14,118 nt of DNA from the NCBI GenBank assembly GCA_021782065.1, contig JAJXVQ010000020.1:1-14118 (forward strand), written 5' to 3'. The position numbers and the translations under genes are program-made. The number at the start of each line of letters is the position of its first letter. Within the stretch, counting starts at the first letter, position 1. The notes under the pieces are model-generated. The model was not told the DNA's origin and did not search any database. It saw only the letters and a list, made by a program, of their open reading frames with translations. This document shows positions 1 through 5,935 of this stretch, one piece after another. The stretch comes from Pseudomonadota bacterium (lineage in GTDB: Bacteria; Pseudomonadota; Gammaproteobacteria; UBA1113).

Positions 1-61
1 AGCTGTGATGGCGAGTTTCAAGATATGCTTTTTCTTCTGGTGTTAAATATAATCTCTTCAT
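1..61 (-). mobile_element. IS630-type transposase, N-terminal end only (runs off the window)
   Basis: Reading the minus strand from the ATG at 61 gives 20 codons beginning MKRLYLTPEEKAYLE and continuing past the window edge. The pattern of a short basic start, then L-T-x-E-E-x-x-x-L-E, resembles the start of IS630/Tc1-mariner-family transposases, where a helix-turn-helix DNA-binding region follows. Only the start is visible, so completeness and activity cannot be judged. The outer end of the element should lie within roughly 100 bases upstream of the ATG (to the right, about 62-130), but I could not identify the terminal repeat. Family assignment rests on very few residues and is tentative. 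Confidence 0.5.
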
Positions 62-450: not shown

Positions 451-618
451 ATGGACAACAACATAGTCATTTTTGCAATTTTTCTTATTTTCTCGGGTGC
501 GGCAGCGATGGCGACGCTCGCTTTGTACACGCGTCAATCCTTTTCGTCTTGTTCGCTACACTCGTCGGCTTACAATAGCGGGGACTGCTATTCCTTGCTA
601 TTGGAATCTATTTCATAG
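451..618 (+). pseudogene. Frameshifted N-terminal remnant of a membrane protein resembling a cation:proton antiporter
   Basis: An ATG at 451 preceded by CGGAGA (435-440) opens a 55-codon frame. Its first 30 residues (starting MDNNIVIFAIFLIFSGAAA, then MATLALYTRQS) look like the first transmembrane helix and loop of KefB/CPA2-type monovalent cation:proton antiporters. After the RQS motif the frame turns into a serine-rich, non-membrane sequence and stops at 616. A neighbouring frame in the same stretch reads as membrane-like sequence (SILFVLFATLVGL, then GLLFLAIGIYFIGRE ending at 629). This points to a frameshift plus a large deletion of the antiporter body. The ribosome binding site may still allow a short peptide to be made. 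Family assignment is by recollection of the N-terminal pattern only. Confidence 0.4.
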
Positions 619-635
619 GGCGTGAATAGTTATGT

Positions 636-665
636 TTTATACTGTAATATAGAATAAAATATGAT
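636..665 (+). promoter_or_regulatory. Possible sigma70 promoter of the signalling cassette
   Basis: TTTATA (636-641, 4 of 6 to the -35 consensus) and TATGAT (660-665, 5 of 6 to the -10) are separated by 18 bases. This would start transcription near 672, about 95 bases before the first cassette gene. The region is very AT-rich, so chance matches are likely. Confidence 0.25.
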
Positions 666-733
666 ATGATTTAGCTTCATAAGGAAGGATGGTTAGGCTT
701 TATATTTTTATATGAGTAAGAGGTAAAACCAAA

Positions 734-769
734 ATGTCGGTCTTGCTTGAAGGGGGGTACTTTATGTGA
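734..769 (+). CDS. Possible 11-codon leader peptide overlapping the start of the LuxI-like gene
   Basis: ATG at 734 opens the frame MSVLLEGGYFM and ends at TGA 767-769. It is preceded by AAGAGG (718-723) at a usable distance. Its stop overlaps the GTG start of the next gene in the four bases GTGA (766-769), the arrangement expected for translational coupling. The GAAGGGGGG that should serve as ribosome binding site for the next gene lies inside this small frame, so ribosomes on the leader would affect access to it. This may be coincidence, since very short frames are common. Confidence 0.25.
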   Translation: MSVLLEGGYFM

Positions 770-1437
770 AAGAAGCAAATAGCCTAGAAATGCTTAATCA
801 GGCACGTTCTCTTTTCTATCATTATTATATAGAAATACACGAATGGGAAATTTATGATGTTAACCATTCTGGTATATGCATTGTGAAGGGTAAAGAAGGC
901 TTTATGCTAGAAGATAATTATGATGAAGAAAGCATCTGGTTCTTATTATACCTGAAACAAATCCCCATTGGCTGTATTCGGATATGTGGTGTTGATCAAA
1001 ATAAAATCCTTGAAATAGAAGAATATGCAAATGTCAGAAGAAAACTCAAGGATATTTTTAGCAAAAAGAAACAACTTAATTTAGTGGGATTTAACAGAGA
1101 AGTTGTATTGCCACAATATGGGTGTGATCAATCTTTGCTGTGCCTATTAGAAGCACCTATTGCCTATTGTCTTCAAAAAAATAGATCCATACTAACGAGT
1201 TGTGTGTTTCAAGAATGGTATACTCTCTATACTATTCTGGGTTTTGAAGAATTAACATCTGCCAAATTTAAATATTATGAGACAGAGCCCCATTATCTAG
1301 ATGTTTTTTTCGCTGAAAGTATGAATTTGCTAAAAATACTTAACAATATACCATTGTTGTTAAATTTACCCGCCAGTCCCTGTCTAAACAATTTAAACCA
1401 TATCTCTTATACGAAAAAAAGGAATTATTATGATTAA
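766..1437 (+). CDS. LuxI/GNAT-fold protein, putative autoinducer-synthase-like acyltransferase
   Basis: This 223-residue protein is compatible with the LuxI/GNAT fold. Seen in order: R14 and a Phe/Tyr pair at 17-18, W27, a D-x-Y-D motif at D50-D53, G-C-I-R at 69-72, N-R-E-V at 110-113, then a helix (LLEAPIAYCLQKNRS, 127-141) and an LGFEE-x(5)-KFKYYE stretch near 158-171. LuxI/LasI enzymes carry the same ordered pattern (R, F, W, D-x-Y-D, G-x-x-R-L, E-x-x-R) for binding SAM and acyl-ACP. The family Glu three residues before the last Arg is Gly108 here, so classic homoserine-lactone synthesis is not assured; a related acyltransferase is possible. The GTG start is chosen for the GAAGGGGGG at 749-757; the next Met is eight codons in. 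The gene is AT-rich and overlaps the next one by 8 bases. The fold is moderately sure, the product unknown. Confidence 0.55.
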   Translation: MKEANSLEMLNQARSLFYHYYIEIHEWEIYDVNHSGICIVKGKEGFMLEDNYDEESIWFLLYLKQIPIGCIRICGVDQNKILEIEEYANVRRKLKDIFSKKKQLNLVGFNREVVLPQYGCDQSLLCLLEAPIAYCLQKNRSILTSCVFQEWYTLYTILGFEELTSAKFKYYETEPHYLDVFFAESMNLLKILNNIPLLLNLPASPCLNNLNHISYTKKRNYYD

Positions 1438-1765
1438 TTTTGGAGTTTTTGAACAAGTAAGGAAGAAATATAAAAACGAAGATTTCCCCTTTTTAAATGA
1501 ACAATGCATAAGCGCACAAATAAACAAGCCTTATCAGGGGTTACATATACTTCATAATATCCCCTTAACCATTGAAGCGGTTTTAAAGATAGAACCTCTA
1601 TTGATTGGCGGTGCGGATATAACTATGAGTTGTATTAGTATTCTTGAGCCACAGCAAATTGCACTAGACATTCTAAAAGATGCTAATGTTAAGGTTCAAA
1701 TAGAGCATTGTTTTACAGGAGAATATGACTTTTGTATGGATTGTTGTGGTGAACTTCTTGATTAA
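1430..1765 (+). CDS. Small protein matching the N-terminal part of S-adenosylhomocysteine hydrolase, without the catalytic region
   Basis: The 111 residues align by eye with about the first 110-120 residues of S-adenosylhomocysteine hydrolase. KPYQGLHI (33-40) stands for the family KPxxGxRI; NIPLTIEAVLKIEPLLIGGA (43-62) for the family helix in which LHMTxETAVLIETLxxLGA is typical; ITMSCISILEPQQIA for VxWxSCNIFSTQDHA; and GEYDFCMDCCGELL for the EEYxWC helix. The substrate-contacting His of LHMT is Pro45; the following Thr (T47) is kept. The later substrate, catalytic and NAD-binding regions are absent, so it should not hydrolyse SAH. It may be a binding or scaffold protein, or the stump of a longer gene. 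Ribosome binding site AGGA at 1420-1423. It starts inside the preceding gene and ends 9 bases before the kinase gene, whose AAGGAG overlaps its stop codon. Confidence 0.55.
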   Translation: MINFGVFEQVRKKYKNEDFPFLNEQCISAQINKPYQGLHILHNIPLTIEAVLKIEPLLIGGADITMSCISILEPQQIALDILKDANVKVQIEHCFTGEYDFCMDCCGELLD

Positions 1766-1774
1766 GGAGCTTTT

Positions 1775-4700
1775 ATGGATAAGAACGATAAAAGCAGGAT
1801 ATATCTTGATAATATAATAGAGCGTTCACCCGCGTATATTTTTTGGAAAGACATAAATCTTGCCTATTTAGGGTGTACTTATAAGTTTGCAAATCTTCTT
1901 GGGAGAAACTCCCCTAAAGAGATAATAGGGAAGACGGATTCTGAACTGGGTTGGGGCGTGGGTGAAGTAGAAACCTATAGAAAAAGAGATTTAGATGTAA
2001 TTAATGGCAATACGATCATCAATGTAGAAGAAAAAATTGCAAGACCAGACGGGTCTAAATTCATGATGCTAGTTAATAAGACGCCTTTAAGAGATGAATA
2101 TGGCAATTGTATAGGAATCCTTGCCCTATCTGTGGATATAACAGACCGAAAAATAGCTGAAAATGCTCTGCAAATGGCCAAAGAAGCTGCCGAGGCAGCC
2201 AATCAAGCCAAAACCGAATTCGTACAAAATATGCAGCATGATATACGTACACCCTGCGCGGGCATTTGGGGTGTATTGGACATTGTCGCTAAAACAGAAC
2301 CGGATGCCGAAAGAAGAGAAACGTTAGAGATGGCGGTTGATGCCAGTAAAAGGCTTTTAGATCTGTGCAATGAGGCGGTTGAATTTGGAGATTTGAGTGG
2401 GAATAATAAACCCGTTGTACAAAAGAGTTTAGACGTGCGCGAATTGGCGCGATCGGTGATTGAACTCAATAAACCAGCGGTTTTTGCTAAAGATCTCAGT
2501 ATTCACTTTAAGATAGCAGCCTCGGTGCCACCCCATATTGTGAGTGATGAATTCAGATTAAGCCGTATTCTCATCAACTTGCTGGGCAACGCCGTAAAAT
2601 TTTCACGCCAAGGCGAAATTACCTTAAGCATGACGGCTTCTGCGATAGACCAAGACACGCGCAAGGGTTTCTTAACAATAGAATTCAAAGACCAGGGAAT
2701 AGGCATTGCTGCCGATAAAGTCCATACCGTTTTTGAAAAATTTAGCCGGGGGGTTGCCTCTAACACCAATAAATACCCTGGAACGGGTTTGGGCCTGTAT
2801 GTGGTGAAAACCTTTGTGGATGAATTAAATGGCGAGATTGAATTAGAAAGCCAGGAAAACGAAGGAACTTATTTTAAGCTCAATATTCCTTTTAAGGCCC
2901 TTTTGGAAGAGTTGAAGAAACCAGGCGTGGAAATTGACGAGCATTTTAAGTCTCCGATTAAATTCGAGACGACAGCGGCAAAGCAAGCTCCAAAAACCAC
3001 CATTCAAAAAAGGCCTGTGGCTGAAAAACCATTTGCCCACAAGCTTTTAATCATCGAAGACGATAAAACCTGTCTTTTTGCCGAAAAGAATCTGTTATCT
3101 ACTTTCACAAATCATATTGATACAGCGGAAACCGTAGCCGAAGCGCTAGAGAAGTTAGCTTCAAAAATGTATGATTTGGTAATTTCTGATCTGGGCTTGC
3201 CTGATGGCTCCGGCAACGACATCGTAGCCAAGGTTAAAGTCAGCACGGAATCCCTTAATTACAATACACCGTTTGTGGCGATGACAGCACATCAAGACGC
3301 ATTAAAACATGAACAAGCCATGGCCGCGGGTTTTACCTCCACCAACACCAAGCCCTTAGGTGCCGAAAAAACCACCGAGTTTTTAAATGCGTATCCGGCA
3401 AAAAGGGTGGGTTCGCCTCGAGAAGAATTGGCTATTTCGACCAAAACACACGGTCTGCCGGTAATCGATTTGGTCTTAGGCATGCAACGAATTTCCGCTA
3501 TTACTGAAAGCCAAGCAATAGAAGTCTTAGGCATTTTATGGGAAACTTTGCAAGTTGATATCCCCTTATTGCAACAGGCAGAAAAAAATAATGATATCGA
3601 AGGGACAAATGCATTGTTGCTTAAAATACGCGGTGGTTCATGCTATGCAGGCACGCCTCGCTTAGAAGCAGCTTGTGAGGCATTGTATCATGCAGCAGGA
3701 AGAGGAATTAAAGACTTAAGAAAAATTCATGACTTGTTCTCTTTGCTCTATGACGAGGCAAAATTATTTACTGAGCAGTTCAAAGAACTCATCAAAGGCA
3801 TGAATGCTCAAAAAGAATCGGAACATTTAAGAATGCTGAATGAAAAGCAAAAAGCACTTTTAGAACAAGAGGCAAAATTCACCAAAATAGCCAATCAAGT
3901 GGCGCACGATATACGTTCACCCGTCGGTACTTTATTAATGATCTTGAAATCGTGCATGGACATTCCAGAAGCAAGGCGCATCACTCTAAGGGAAGCCGCC
4001 ATGGGCATAGGCGATATTGCCAATCACTTGCTACATGAATATAGAAAGAAAGGCGCGGATGAAGCGATAGTACACGAAGAACGCCAGGCTATGTTAGTAT
4101 CTACTGTTTTGCTGGAATCCTTAACCCACAAAAAATACCAATATGAGGGCTTACCTATTCAATTTGACTATAACTTCCAACCCAATACCCAATTTGCGTT
4201 TATTGAAATACAAGCGAGTGCTTTTAAGCGGATGTTATCTAATTTAATGAATAATGCCGTGGATGCTTTTGACGGTCAACATGGAACAGTTGGTTTACAG
4301 CTAGAAGCCGATAATGAATGGGTGAAAATATGCATTCAGGATATGGGAAAGGGTATGTCTTCTGACTTGCGCGACAAAATTCTGCATAAAACTGCTGTGA
4401 CACAGGGCAAGCAATCAGGCCACGGCTTAGGGTTTACTCAGGTGTGGGAAACCTTAGATCAGAATCAAGGTGAGTTAGAAATCGATTCTAAACTCGGTGT
4501 AGGAACTATGATTACGGCCACTTTTCCTAGGATCACCGCCCCGCATTGGATTGCGGAAGAAATGGTATTAAACGCGAATGATACCGTTGCTATTTTAGAT
4601 GACGATAGCTCTATACACGGTGCTTGGGATGCTCGTTTTGAAAGCCTTTTAAATGAAAATGCAGAATTACAGCTAAAACATTTTCAGATGGGTAGTGAAG

Positions 4701-5278
4701 CGTTGGCCTTTATAGAAAGATTGACAGAGACTCAAAAAGAGCGAATTTTTCTGCTCTCGGACTATGAACTGTTGAAACAAGAGTTCAATGGTTTAGAAGT
4801 CATTGCTAAAAGTGGATTACAACGTTGTATGCTGGTCACTAGCCATTATGCCGATCCAGCCATACAAAAAGAGGCGGCCAAAACGAACACCCGAATTTTG
4901 CCTAAGCAATTGGCTTCTGAAGTGCTGATCAAAATGAATGATGCTGCACCGGAAAAGGTCTATGCCGTTATCGTGGATGATTATGAGGGTTTTGCTAAAA
5001 CATTAGCGGTCTATGCTTTTGACGATGACCAAATCACAGTCGAATACCTTAACCCAGAACATCTTTTAAGGGATCTCCATAAATATGACAAAGATACTAA
5101 ATTCTATCTGGATAATAATTATGCCAACTCAAAACTAACTGGTTTAGAGGTCGCCAAAAAATTGCATGATCTAGGTTATGAACATTTAGTTATGTTATCC
5201 GGTGAAGTCGATTTAAAAGGGCCACCTTATGTGACCATTATTGGGAAAAATGAAATAGAGCGCTTGAAGAATTGGTAA
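1775..5278 (+). CDS. Soluble hybrid sensor kinase: PAS, two kinase cores, three receivers, degenerate Hpt
   Basis: 1167 residues with no membrane segment or HAMP domain, so a cytosolic sensor. Order: PAS (about 8-127); linker helix; HisKA with H155 (MQHDIRTP); HATPase with N268/N272, DQGIG (306-310), GTGLG (336-340); receiver 1 (423-540: D429, D430, D472, T504, K526); Hpt-like domain (about 570-670); coiled coil (about 675-705); second HisKA with H711 (VAHDIRSP); second HATPase with N823/N827, DMGKG (856-860), GHGLG (882-886); receiver 2 (936-1050: D942-944, D996, T1022, K1044); receiver 3 (1061-1160: D1068/D1069, D1113, S1142, K1158). In the Hpt domain the usual H-x-L-x-G motif reads LKIRGG, with Leu616 at the phospho-His position. 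No DNA-binding or enzymatic output domain is present, so a separate phosphotransfer protein or partner is expected. AAGGAG at 1764-1769 gives a strong start. Domain calls are confident; the signal is unknown. Confidence 0.9.
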   Translation: MDKNDKSRIYLDNIIERSPAYIFWKDINLAYLGCTYKFANLLGRNSPKEIIGKTDSELGWGVGEVETYRKRDLDVINGNTIINVEEKIARPDGSKFMMLVNKTPLRDEYGNCIGILALSVDITDRKIAENALQMAKEAAEAANQAKTEFVQNMQHDIRTPCAGIWGVLDIVAKTEPDAERRETLEMAVDASKRLLDLCNEAVEFGDLSGNNKPVVQKSLDVRELARSVIELNKPAVFAKDLSIHFKIAASVPPHIVSDEFRLSRILINLLGNAVKFSRQGEITLSMTASAIDQDTRKGFLTIEFKDQGIGIAADKVHTVFEKFSRGVASNTNKYPGTGLGLYVVKTFVDELNGEIELESQENEGTYFKLNIPFKALLEELKKPGVEIDEHFKSPIKFETTAAKQAPKTTIQKRPVAEKPFAHKLLIIEDDKTCLFAEKNLLSTFTNHIDTAETVAEALEKLASKMYDLVISDLGLPDGSGNDIVAKVKVSTESLNYNTPFVAMTAHQDALKHEQAMAAGFTSTNTKPLGAEKTTEFLNAYPAKRVGSPREELAISTKTHGLPVIDLVLGMQRISAITESQAIEVLGILWETLQVDIPLLQQAEKNNDIEGTNALLLKIRGGSCYAGTPRLEAACEALYHAAGRGIKDLRKIHDLFSLLYDEAKLFTEQFKELIKGMNAQKESEHLRMLNEKQKALLEQEAKFTKIANQVAHDIRSPVGTLLMILKSCMDIPEARRITLREAAMGIGDIANHLLHEYRKKGADEAIVHEERQAMLVSTVLLESLTHKKYQYEGLPIQFDYNFQPNTQFAFIEIQASAFKRMLSNLMNNAVDAFDGQHGTVGLQLEADNEWVKICIQDMGKGMSSDLRDKILHKTAVTQGKQSGHGLGFTQVWETLDQNQGELEIDSKLGVGTMITATFPRITAPHWIAEEMVLNANDTVAILDDDSSIHGAWDARFESLLNENAELQLKHFQMGSEALAFIERLTETQKERIFLLSDYELLKQEFNGLEVIAKSGLQRCMLVTSHYADPAIQKEAAKTNTRILPKQLASEVLIKMNDAAPEKVYAVIVDDYEGFAKTLAVYAFDDDQITVEYLNPEHLLRDLHKYDKDTKFYLDNNYANSKLTGLEVAKKLHDLGYEHLVMLSGEVDLKGPPYVTIIGKNEIERLKNW

Positions 5279-5365
5279 TGCTGATTCAATCTGCGAGATC
5301 TAAAAATGTTCACAGGTCTATTCTGGGTGGTCCACGGACAGCCCCTACGTTGTTCTGAGGCTCGT

Positions 5366-5935
5366 ATGATGAATATGCACATTGACTTAAAAACCGGCTG
5401 GGCTAGCGATATACGAATCCTTGCCTCACCTAATTGTAACAGTCGCCCTGTAGGAACGGAGGTTGATCTACTTATTATACATTGTATCAGCCTGCCGCCT
5501 GGACAATATGGGGGTGGCTATATTGAAAAATTATTCAGCAACCAATTGCCCGTAAAAGAACATCCTTATTTTAAAGACATTGCTAACAACCCTGTTTCTG
5601 CGCATTTTTTGATCGAAAGACACGGTGCTGTGACTCAATTTGTCAGTATCTACGACCGTGCCTGGCATGCGGGCGTGTCCTCTTTTGCGGGCCGTGCGCA
5701 ATGCAATGACTACTCCATAGGAGTAGAATTGGAGGGTTGTGTCACCGATAGTTTTACTTTTGAACAATATAAGGCCTTACAGGCCCTGTGTTTGGCCTTA
5801 AAGGGATGTTTTCCAGCCATTAATTGCGGTAGAATTGTGGCTCATAGCGATGTAGCGCCTGGGCGCAAAGATGACCCCGGGCCTTTTTTTGATTGGCAGG
5901 AACTTTTTGCTTTATTAAAGGACGCGGGTTTTTAA
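5366..5935 (+). CDS. ampD: AmpD, 1,6-anhydro-N-acetylmuramyl-L-alanine amidase
   Basis: A zinc amidase of the cytoplasmic cell-wall recycling pathway. It cuts the lactyl-amide bond between anhydro-MurNAc and the stem peptide of imported muropeptides, and in many species loss of it derepresses AmpR-controlled beta-lactamase. From this start (189 residues) the zinc ligands are H39 (LLIIHCISLPPG), H160 (IVAHSDVAPGRKDDPGP) and D170, with catalytic Glu at E121 (SIGVELEG). The block RAWHAGVSSFAGR-x(2)-CNDYSIG is typical of AmpD. The open frame extends upstream to 5306, but the extra 20 residues have no counterpart in AmpD. TGAGG at 5356-5360 supports ATG 5366 or 5369. No signal peptide, consistent with AmpD rather than the exported AmiD. 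ampE follows, as in E. coli. Confidence 0.93.
   Translation: MMNMHIDLKTGWASDIRILASPNCNSRPVGTEVDLLIIHCISLPPGQYGGGYIEKLFSNQLPVKEHPYFKDIANNPVSAHFLIERHGAVTQFVSIYDRAWHAGVSSFAGRAQCNDYSIGVELEGCVTDSFTFEQYKALQALCLALKGCFPAINCGRIVAHSDVAPGRKDDPGPFFDWQELFALLKDAGF

Follow-up and report, generated by a model that had tools for sequence, protein, structure and literature searches.

In the closest described systems, LqsA/LqsS and CqsA/CqsS, the gene of an autoinducer synthase adjoins the gene of its cognate sensor histidine kinase, and the two are treated as one cassette in the literature (PMC3376566). The DNA analyzed here, a gammaproteobacterial stretch of 14,118 nt (contig JAJXVQ010000020.1; "the window" throughout), carries a three-gene cassette with a similar plan, in which a synthase-like gene (gene 1) stands beside a sensor kinase gene (gene 3). 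The parts differ: LqsA and CqsA are pyridoxal phosphate-dependent, whereas the relatives of gene 1 match GNAT and FeeM profiles; LqsS and CqsS are trans-membrane sensors, whereas the kinase of the cassette is a cytosolic PAS protein; and a gene resembling S-adenosylhomocysteine hydrolase (SAHH; gene 2), together with synthase-kinase fusions in relatives, sets the cassette apart from both systems. Acyl-homoserine-lactone (AHL) synthases are paired with hybrid kinases in LuxM/LuxN and AinS/AinR, and therefore this pairing alone is not new; LuxM and AinS belong to a different family, and LuxN and AinR are membrane receptors. An earlier, sequence-only reading of this DNA had put the whole combination forward as possibly new. 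A search of the open-access literature, largely without subscription papers and preprints, turned up no paper on an acyl synthase, an SAHH-like protein and a hybrid kinase together, which falls short of proving that none exists; papers on FeeM with a histidine kinase were judged unrelated to the cassette.

We think it somewhat probable that the three genes form a mobile synthase-sensor cassette, built on an LqsA/LqsS-like plan from unrelated parts, which was acquired in the window and partly remodelled there. Its genes, with lengths in amino acids (aa), are as follows.

766..1437, + strand: gene 1, a FeeM/GNAT-type acyltransferase-like protein of 223 aa with a GTG start, assigned by homology to protein P0012 of genome G009

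1430..1765, + strand: gene 2, the N-terminal third (111 aa) of an SAHH-derived protein, assigned from alignment A3

1775..5278, + strand: gene 3, a cytosolic double-core hybrid histidine kinase of 1167 aa, assigned from Pfam domains and a hydrophobicity scan

On the evidence of gene order, the combination is a recurring module and not a chance neighborhood, because three further genomes, G009, G146 and G118, have the trio of gene 1, gene 2 and PAS hybrid kinase with order and strand unchanged (the G146 kinase is cut off at a contig end). The sequence-only reading had made its proposal depend on homologues being found together elsewhere, as they are, and had described the layout correctly: the open reading frame (ORF) coordinates give three co-directional genes with an 8-base overlap between genes 1 and 2 and a 9-base gap between genes 2 and 3, and purine-rich stretches in keeping with ribosome binding sites lie upstream of all three starts. 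The gene 1-2/gene 2-3 spacing is -8/9 in the window, -8/116 in G146, 11/27 in G118 and 151/34 in G009. Where readable, the flanks differ among the window, G009 (NADH-dehydrogenase subunit genes) and G118 (adenosine deaminase, sigma factor and enolase genes); a small ORF 5′ of the G146 module matched no Pfam family.

Further, there are genomes where synthase-like domain and kinase are fused. The gene-1 domain, PAS and kinase occupy one reading frame in G015 (875 aa) and G016 (761 aa); the G014 version has the gene-1 domain with some of the PAS in one frame and the rest in an overlapping second frame. The overlap of the two G014 frames (L096:9436-9455) lies inside the PAS and may be an assembly error, decay or a true split. 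Overall, a kinase adjoins or is fused to gene 1 at 7 of the 8 strong gene-1 loci, window included, and adjoins 5 of the 6 examined members of the gene-2 family, including the window's stub; across the module, the PAS is retained while the kinase cores vary. At a second G009 locus, an SAHH-like gene (379 aa) overlaps a PAS hybrid kinase gene (630 aa) by 11 bases, without a gene 1.

Profile comparisons indicate that gene 1 is nearer to FeeM/GNAT acyltransferases than to LuxI. The window protein is 40% identical to P0012 over 185 residues, and P0012 passes the 27-bit cut-off of the FeeM family (PF21926) at 35.1 bits, with P0015 at the cut-off (27) and P0016, P0017, P0021 and P0020 below it (26.4, 24.4, 19.6 and 16.4 bits). 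P0014 has no FeeM match, and neither has window gene 1; for these N-acyl amino acid synthases, relatives are matched and the window protein alone lies under detection. Moreover, P0014 and P0020 are above the cut-off of the GNAT family Acetyltransf_5 (PF13444), and a FeeM protein aligns to the gene-1 profile with a probability of 95%. In contrast, none of the eight gene-1 members matches the LuxI family PF00765 (window, P0012 and P0014-P0017 at E<=1; P0020 and P0021 at E<=0.1), which rules out LuxI as the family of gene 1; a genome search with PF00765 was silent in 12 genomes and in 14 controls alike and is hence uninformative. A review (PMC9654057) describes FeeM as a near structural relative of the AHL synthases, with no similarity to them in sequence. 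The LuxI/GNAT-like character that the sequence-only reading gave to gene 1 is thereby narrowed: kinship with acyltransferases that share the LuxI-type fold, by way of FeeM, stands, and membership of LuxI does not. No LuxR-type receptor was seen among the window ORFs, which were read by eye beyond ampE.

Alignment of the eight members (A2) yields 16 invariant columns, among them W27, D50, W58, R72, E83 and R111, and the E of an E-x-x-R motif is present in six of the eight members. The gene-1 tree groups the window with G009 (91/90) and places the fused trio separately (100/99); no other support in it reaches 95, and the branch of G001 is long. A PDB search with the eight-member profile returned 7 chains at E<=1 (best E 0.003), all weak GNAT or unrelated.

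Among the eight strong gene-1 loci, the only one without a kinase is that of G001, an uncultured Legionellales metagenome-assembled genome, where the homologue is the last gene of an operon (L093:6685-11294) that also encodes an S24-like regulator, an Autoind_bind protein (PF03472, E 1e-8, no matched helix-turn-helix (HTH)), a thioesterase, an FAD enzyme and an alpha/beta hydrolase; an Orn/Lys/Arg decarboxylase and an AMP-binding enzyme are encoded on the opposite strand. From its gene content, the operon looks like a signal or small-molecule biosynthesis cluster. Autoind_bind was found in 3 of the 12 genomes searched (G001, G118 and G146), all of them gene-1 carriers, and was not found in the 5 non-carriers or in 4 of the 7 carriers; the link is thus suggestive only. 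In G146 (L117:2295-3501), a short Autoind_bind ORF (189 aa) adjoins an S24/HTH regulator with 31% identity to that of G001, and the pair is perhaps a split LuxR.

These loci bear on an alternative in which the gene-1 domain is itself the sensor, a GNAT-fold input that would bind acyl carrier protein (ACP)-linked or coenzyme A (CoA)-linked acyl chains or an amino acid, control the kinase directly and report metabolic state. The position of the domain N-terminal to the PAS in the G015 and G016 fusions, the usual place of an input domain, would suit such a role, but gene 1 is a separate gene at five loci (window, G009, G146, G118 and G001). Similarly, the E of the E-x-x-R motif is absent in 2 of the 8 members, but W27, D50, R72, E83 and R111 are invariant in all eight, as expected of an enzyme; the cytosolic nature of the module kinases would also suit it, but the G001 copy stands among biosynthetic genes without a kinase. 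We consider a purely sensory gene 1 rather unlikely.

Alignment to full-length relatives indicates that gene 2 is the first third of an SAHH-derived NAD-binding protein and that the window copy is truncated. Alone, the stub matches the SAHH N-terminus weakly (TIGR00936, E 0.0033; PF05221, E 0.037). Its full-length relatives P0011, P0022 and P0023 have 352-360 residues; P0011 matches the NAD-binding family PF00670 (E 7e-10), the domain that the stub lacks in alignment A3, and the family profile aligns to SAHH structures in the PDB at E 1e-19, spanning the N-terminal and NAD domains. Over its 111 aa, the stub has 56% identity with P0011, 58% with P0022 and 45% with P0023; since the same part is 54% (P0011-P0022), 47% (P0011-P0023) and 60% (P0022-P0023) identical among the relatives, the stub shows no visible drift. 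Among the weaker genome matches of the gene-2 profile, G009:C6 was examined.

The gene-2 family aligns with SAHH over both domains, but it is shorter and its catalytic residues are replaced. In particular, against two SAHHs (rows SAHH_L085 and SAHH_L086, on which the catalytic-residue reading rests, the MetK-like SAHH_L084 being left out), the NAD loop is retained and the catalytic motifs are altered: DDGGD to DCCGE or DCCAE, EETTTG to ELTQTG, FDN to LET or IET, and GHFD to GADD or GAED, with one Lys kept. The SAHH catalytic residues are D131, E156, K186, D190, N191 and H301 in human numbering. The three genomes with a full gene 2 each carry a separate match of SAHH length, and SAHH function for gene 2 is ruled out on these two grounds. 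The SAHH N-terminal region that the sequence-only reading saw in gene 2 is therefore real, although the protein it belongs to is a longer NAD-binding one, cut short in the window; the proposal that gene 2 handles by-products of S-adenosylmethionine is not supported, since the catalytic residues are absent.

Gene 3 looks like a chimera, from the way in which its identities shift along its length, with a module-type PAS followed by two cores from other kinases. Its sections are:

1775..2158, + strand: PAS region of gene 3, residues 1-128, closest to the PAS of the three-gene kinases

2159..3697, + strand: first core of gene 3 (HisKA-HATPase-REC-HPt), closest to the fused G015 kinase

3770..5275, + strand: second core of gene 3 (HisKA-like, HATPase, REC2, REC3), closest to G014

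Pfam identifies PAS-HisKA-HATPase-REC-HPt, the HPt weakly (19 bits vs a cut-off of 24.6), and then a second HATPase core; the alignment adds two receiver-like segments, REC2 and REC3, in the second core. The PAS is 54% identical to that of G146, 51% to G118, 48% to G009, 45% to the second G009 kinase and 29% to the fused G016 kinase, with no match at E<=1e-4 in G015 or G014. The first core is 71% identical to the fused G015 kinase over residues 129-400 (histidine kinase) and 63% over residues 401-665 (REC-HPt), which places a clear break in the compared sequences between the PAS and the 71%-identical first core. The second core (residues 666-1167) is 63% / 69% / 49% identical to G014. Among the kinases compared, the double core was found in the window only; the sequence-only reading was right that it is present, but it looks like a chimera that lies outside the conserved module of which it was thought to be a part. 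The HPt phospho-acceptor His, present in G015, G009 and G118, is aligned with Leu in the window, and the HisKA His and receiver Asp residues are retained.

The description of gene 3 as a cytosolic PAS hybrid kinase was likewise confirmed. No hydrophobic 19-residue stretch scores at least 1.6 in gene 3, and one borderline stretch was found in the G009 kinase; the positive control, the kinases of Legionella plasmids, gave 22 and 34. Because the module kinases are without a clear membrane stretch, a ligand would be met intracellularly.

The Legionella plasmids themselves (L001:2733-7446 and L002:3552-7365) encode a membrane kinase related to the second core of the window (31% identity). The L001 operon begins with a regulator-like gene, whose product is 27% identical to the G001 regulator, and includes a hydrolase and a binding protein. 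These kinases were rejected as the same system, with neither gene 1 nor gene 2 having a tblastn match in L001-L003 (E<=0.01); a GNAT-annotated L002 gene, which adjoins the kinase on the opposite strand, was rejected as a gene-1 relative at a profile alignment probability of 0.4%.

The cassette lies between two host features.

451..540, + strand: remnant of a kefC-like Na_H_Exchanger gene, left insertion boundary (24/30 residues identical to G013)

5306..5935, + strand: ampD-like amidase, a host gene, right insertion boundary (PF01510, E 2e-27)

In the relative G013, an intact kefC-like gene (PF00999, E 6e-49) lies directly 5′ of ampD; in the window, only the first 30 codons of kefC (451-540) are recognizable, followed by the cassette and then ampD. 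Therefore, comparison of these relatives indicates that the kefC-ampD gap (window 451-5305) is a variable insertion site in the window's lineage, filled by the cassette in the window, by three other long ORFs in G016 and by nothing in G013. The simplest reading of this arrangement is that the cassette arrived as one unit. Downstream, ampD and ampE (both by Pfam) precede aceE, aceF, lpd, dus and ndk (by eye), and the order ampD-ampE-aceE is common to G013, G014, G016 and the window. The window's aceE product is 88% identical to that of G014, 85% to G016, 85% to G017 (part present) and 78% to G013, which sets the window among these four; it is 61-63% identical to G009, G001 and G012, 59-61% to seven genomes of Legionella, Legionellaceae or the order of Legionella maceachernii (G006), and 60 and 65% to two pieces in G011, with no match at E<=1e-20 in G010 or G015. 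At the edge of the window (1-60, - strand), the sequence reads KRLYLTPEEKAYLETRHHS, which resembles, and may be, a transposase N-terminus.

Insertion followed by decay, leaving the window cassette without a present function, is an unlikely account. The truncation of gene 2 could be read this way, but the stub is as close to its full-length relatives as they are to each other (56, 58 and 45% vs 54, 60 and 47%); the HPt His is lost from a chimeric kinase, but its HisKA His and receiver Asp are retained; and the adjacent kefC is a remnant, but all three cassette frames are open and the 8-base overlap of genes 1 and 2 is identical in G146. Least probable, and in our view improbable, is that gene 1 makes N-acyl amino acid lipids in the manner of OlsB, with the kinase adjusting membrane or storage lipid levels without any cell-to-cell signal. 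Weak NCBIfam ornithine acyltransferase matches (G001 homologue, E 9e-5; window gene 1, E 0.055) speak for it, but they are far under their cut-offs (22 bits where 350 are required and 13 where 320 are), and G001 has an Autoind_bind neighbor.

Several observations weigh against a mobile synthase-sensor cassette. For gene 1, the window protein by itself matches no family (searches of Pfam at E<=1 and of PDB chains at E<=10 were both negative), the family profile reaches neither FeeM nor LuxI among PDB chains, and the window and G001 members have a residue other than E at position 108 of the E-x-x-R motif. Structure predictions from single sequences are poor (predicted local distance difference test (pLDDT) scores of 36.5 and 48.2). 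For gene 2, the fused gene-1 loci and G001 have no strong match to its family, and therefore it is not essential to the link between gene 1 and the kinase; a relative in G1176 has neither gene 1 nor a related kinase directly beside it. This G1176 gene (L125:9733-10794), a lone 353-aa SAHH-like member from a genome that is distant within the same phylum, follows glycosyltransferase- and flippase-like ORFs (by eye). For gene 3, the PAS identities of 48-54% are just moderately above that of the best-ranked PAS match among 72,556 plasmids (44.5%), so that the PAS assignment is fair and not strong, and the receiver Asp of the G014 REC2 is Gly. The truncation of gene 2 and the loss of the HPt His mean that the window copy may be failing.

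The narrow distribution of the family in the samples also counts against it. Within the genomes sampled, searches place the gene-1 family as one concentrated near Legionellales. Relatives at E<=0.01 occur in 5 of the 10 genomes of G001's order (G009, G001, G016, G015 and G014), and relatives at E<=0.001 in 4 of the 143 genomes of L. maceachernii's order: G146 (E about 1e-57), G118 (E about 5e-56), G085 and G111. The G085 match is a FeeM protein in another setting, with a sub-threshold PF00765 score (22.5 vs 24 bits) and no kinase seen by eye among its neighboring ORFs; the profile matches in G111, G568 and G626 are weak. Gene 1 was found at E<=1e-10 in 3 of 369 genomes of the class sample, all of G001's order, at E<=1e-5 in 2 of 200 (28 bits each) and 0 of 195 genomes of two other orders, and at E<=1e-6 in 1 of 398 genomes of the phylum sample, G001 itself. 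The gene-2 family was found in 1 of 398 genomes of a phylum sample at E<=1e-28 (G1176), with at most five candidates scored per genome. A further scan of genome contigs with gene 1 found no relative, and viral contigs contained none of gene 2 or of the C-terminal half of the kinase. Plasmid searches gave one weak match of 33 residues to window gene 1, two weak matches to the G146 gene 2 (one annotated as adenosylhomocysteinase), and no match to the G118 gene 1 or to window gene 2.

If the favored reading of a mobile synthase-sensor cassette is correct, gene 1 would use acyl-ACP or acyl-CoA as donor of a fatty acyl chain and attach the chain to an amino acid or amine, yielding a small acyl-amide. 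The full-length gene-2 protein, with its SAHH fold and NAD site, would then oxidize, reduce or bind the acyl-amide or a precursor, and the cytosolic PAS hybrid kinase would sense the compound, passing phosphate through HisKA, REC and HPt. What the sequences themselves establish is the homology, gene order, fusion, truncation, chimerism and site of insertion; we infer both the acylation of an amine or amino acid by gene 1 and the role of its product as the ligand sensed by the PAS. In the fused set, placing the gene-1 domain ahead of the PAS kinase would couple making and sensing in one chain. The copy in the window would be a remodelled one that entered the kefC-ampD gap, with gene 2 deprived of the NAD half and with two cores of other kinases in place of the original transmitter.

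Lqs is the one signal system of Legionella that has been studied well. The cassette looks like an undescribed bacterial way to make and sense a chemical signal in relatives of that genus. A bolder proposal, which we offer tentatively, is a new signalling class in which the signal-making acyltransferase serves as the front end of a kinase and the two evolved as one exchangeable unit; the kinase would respond to its bound enzyme, whether to the state of that enzyme or to its product, and the transmitter would be freely swapped. In some lineages this unit would comprise separate genes, one of them for an SAHH-derived NAD protein, and in others a single fused protein. If the cassette works as favored here, relatives of Legionella would possess a second synthase-kinase plan, unrelated to Lqs, in which fused proteins tie enzyme and sensor together physically, with no need to guess at their link, and which raises testable claims about the product of the acyltransferase, the response of the kinase and the role of an SAHH-derived NAD protein in signalling.

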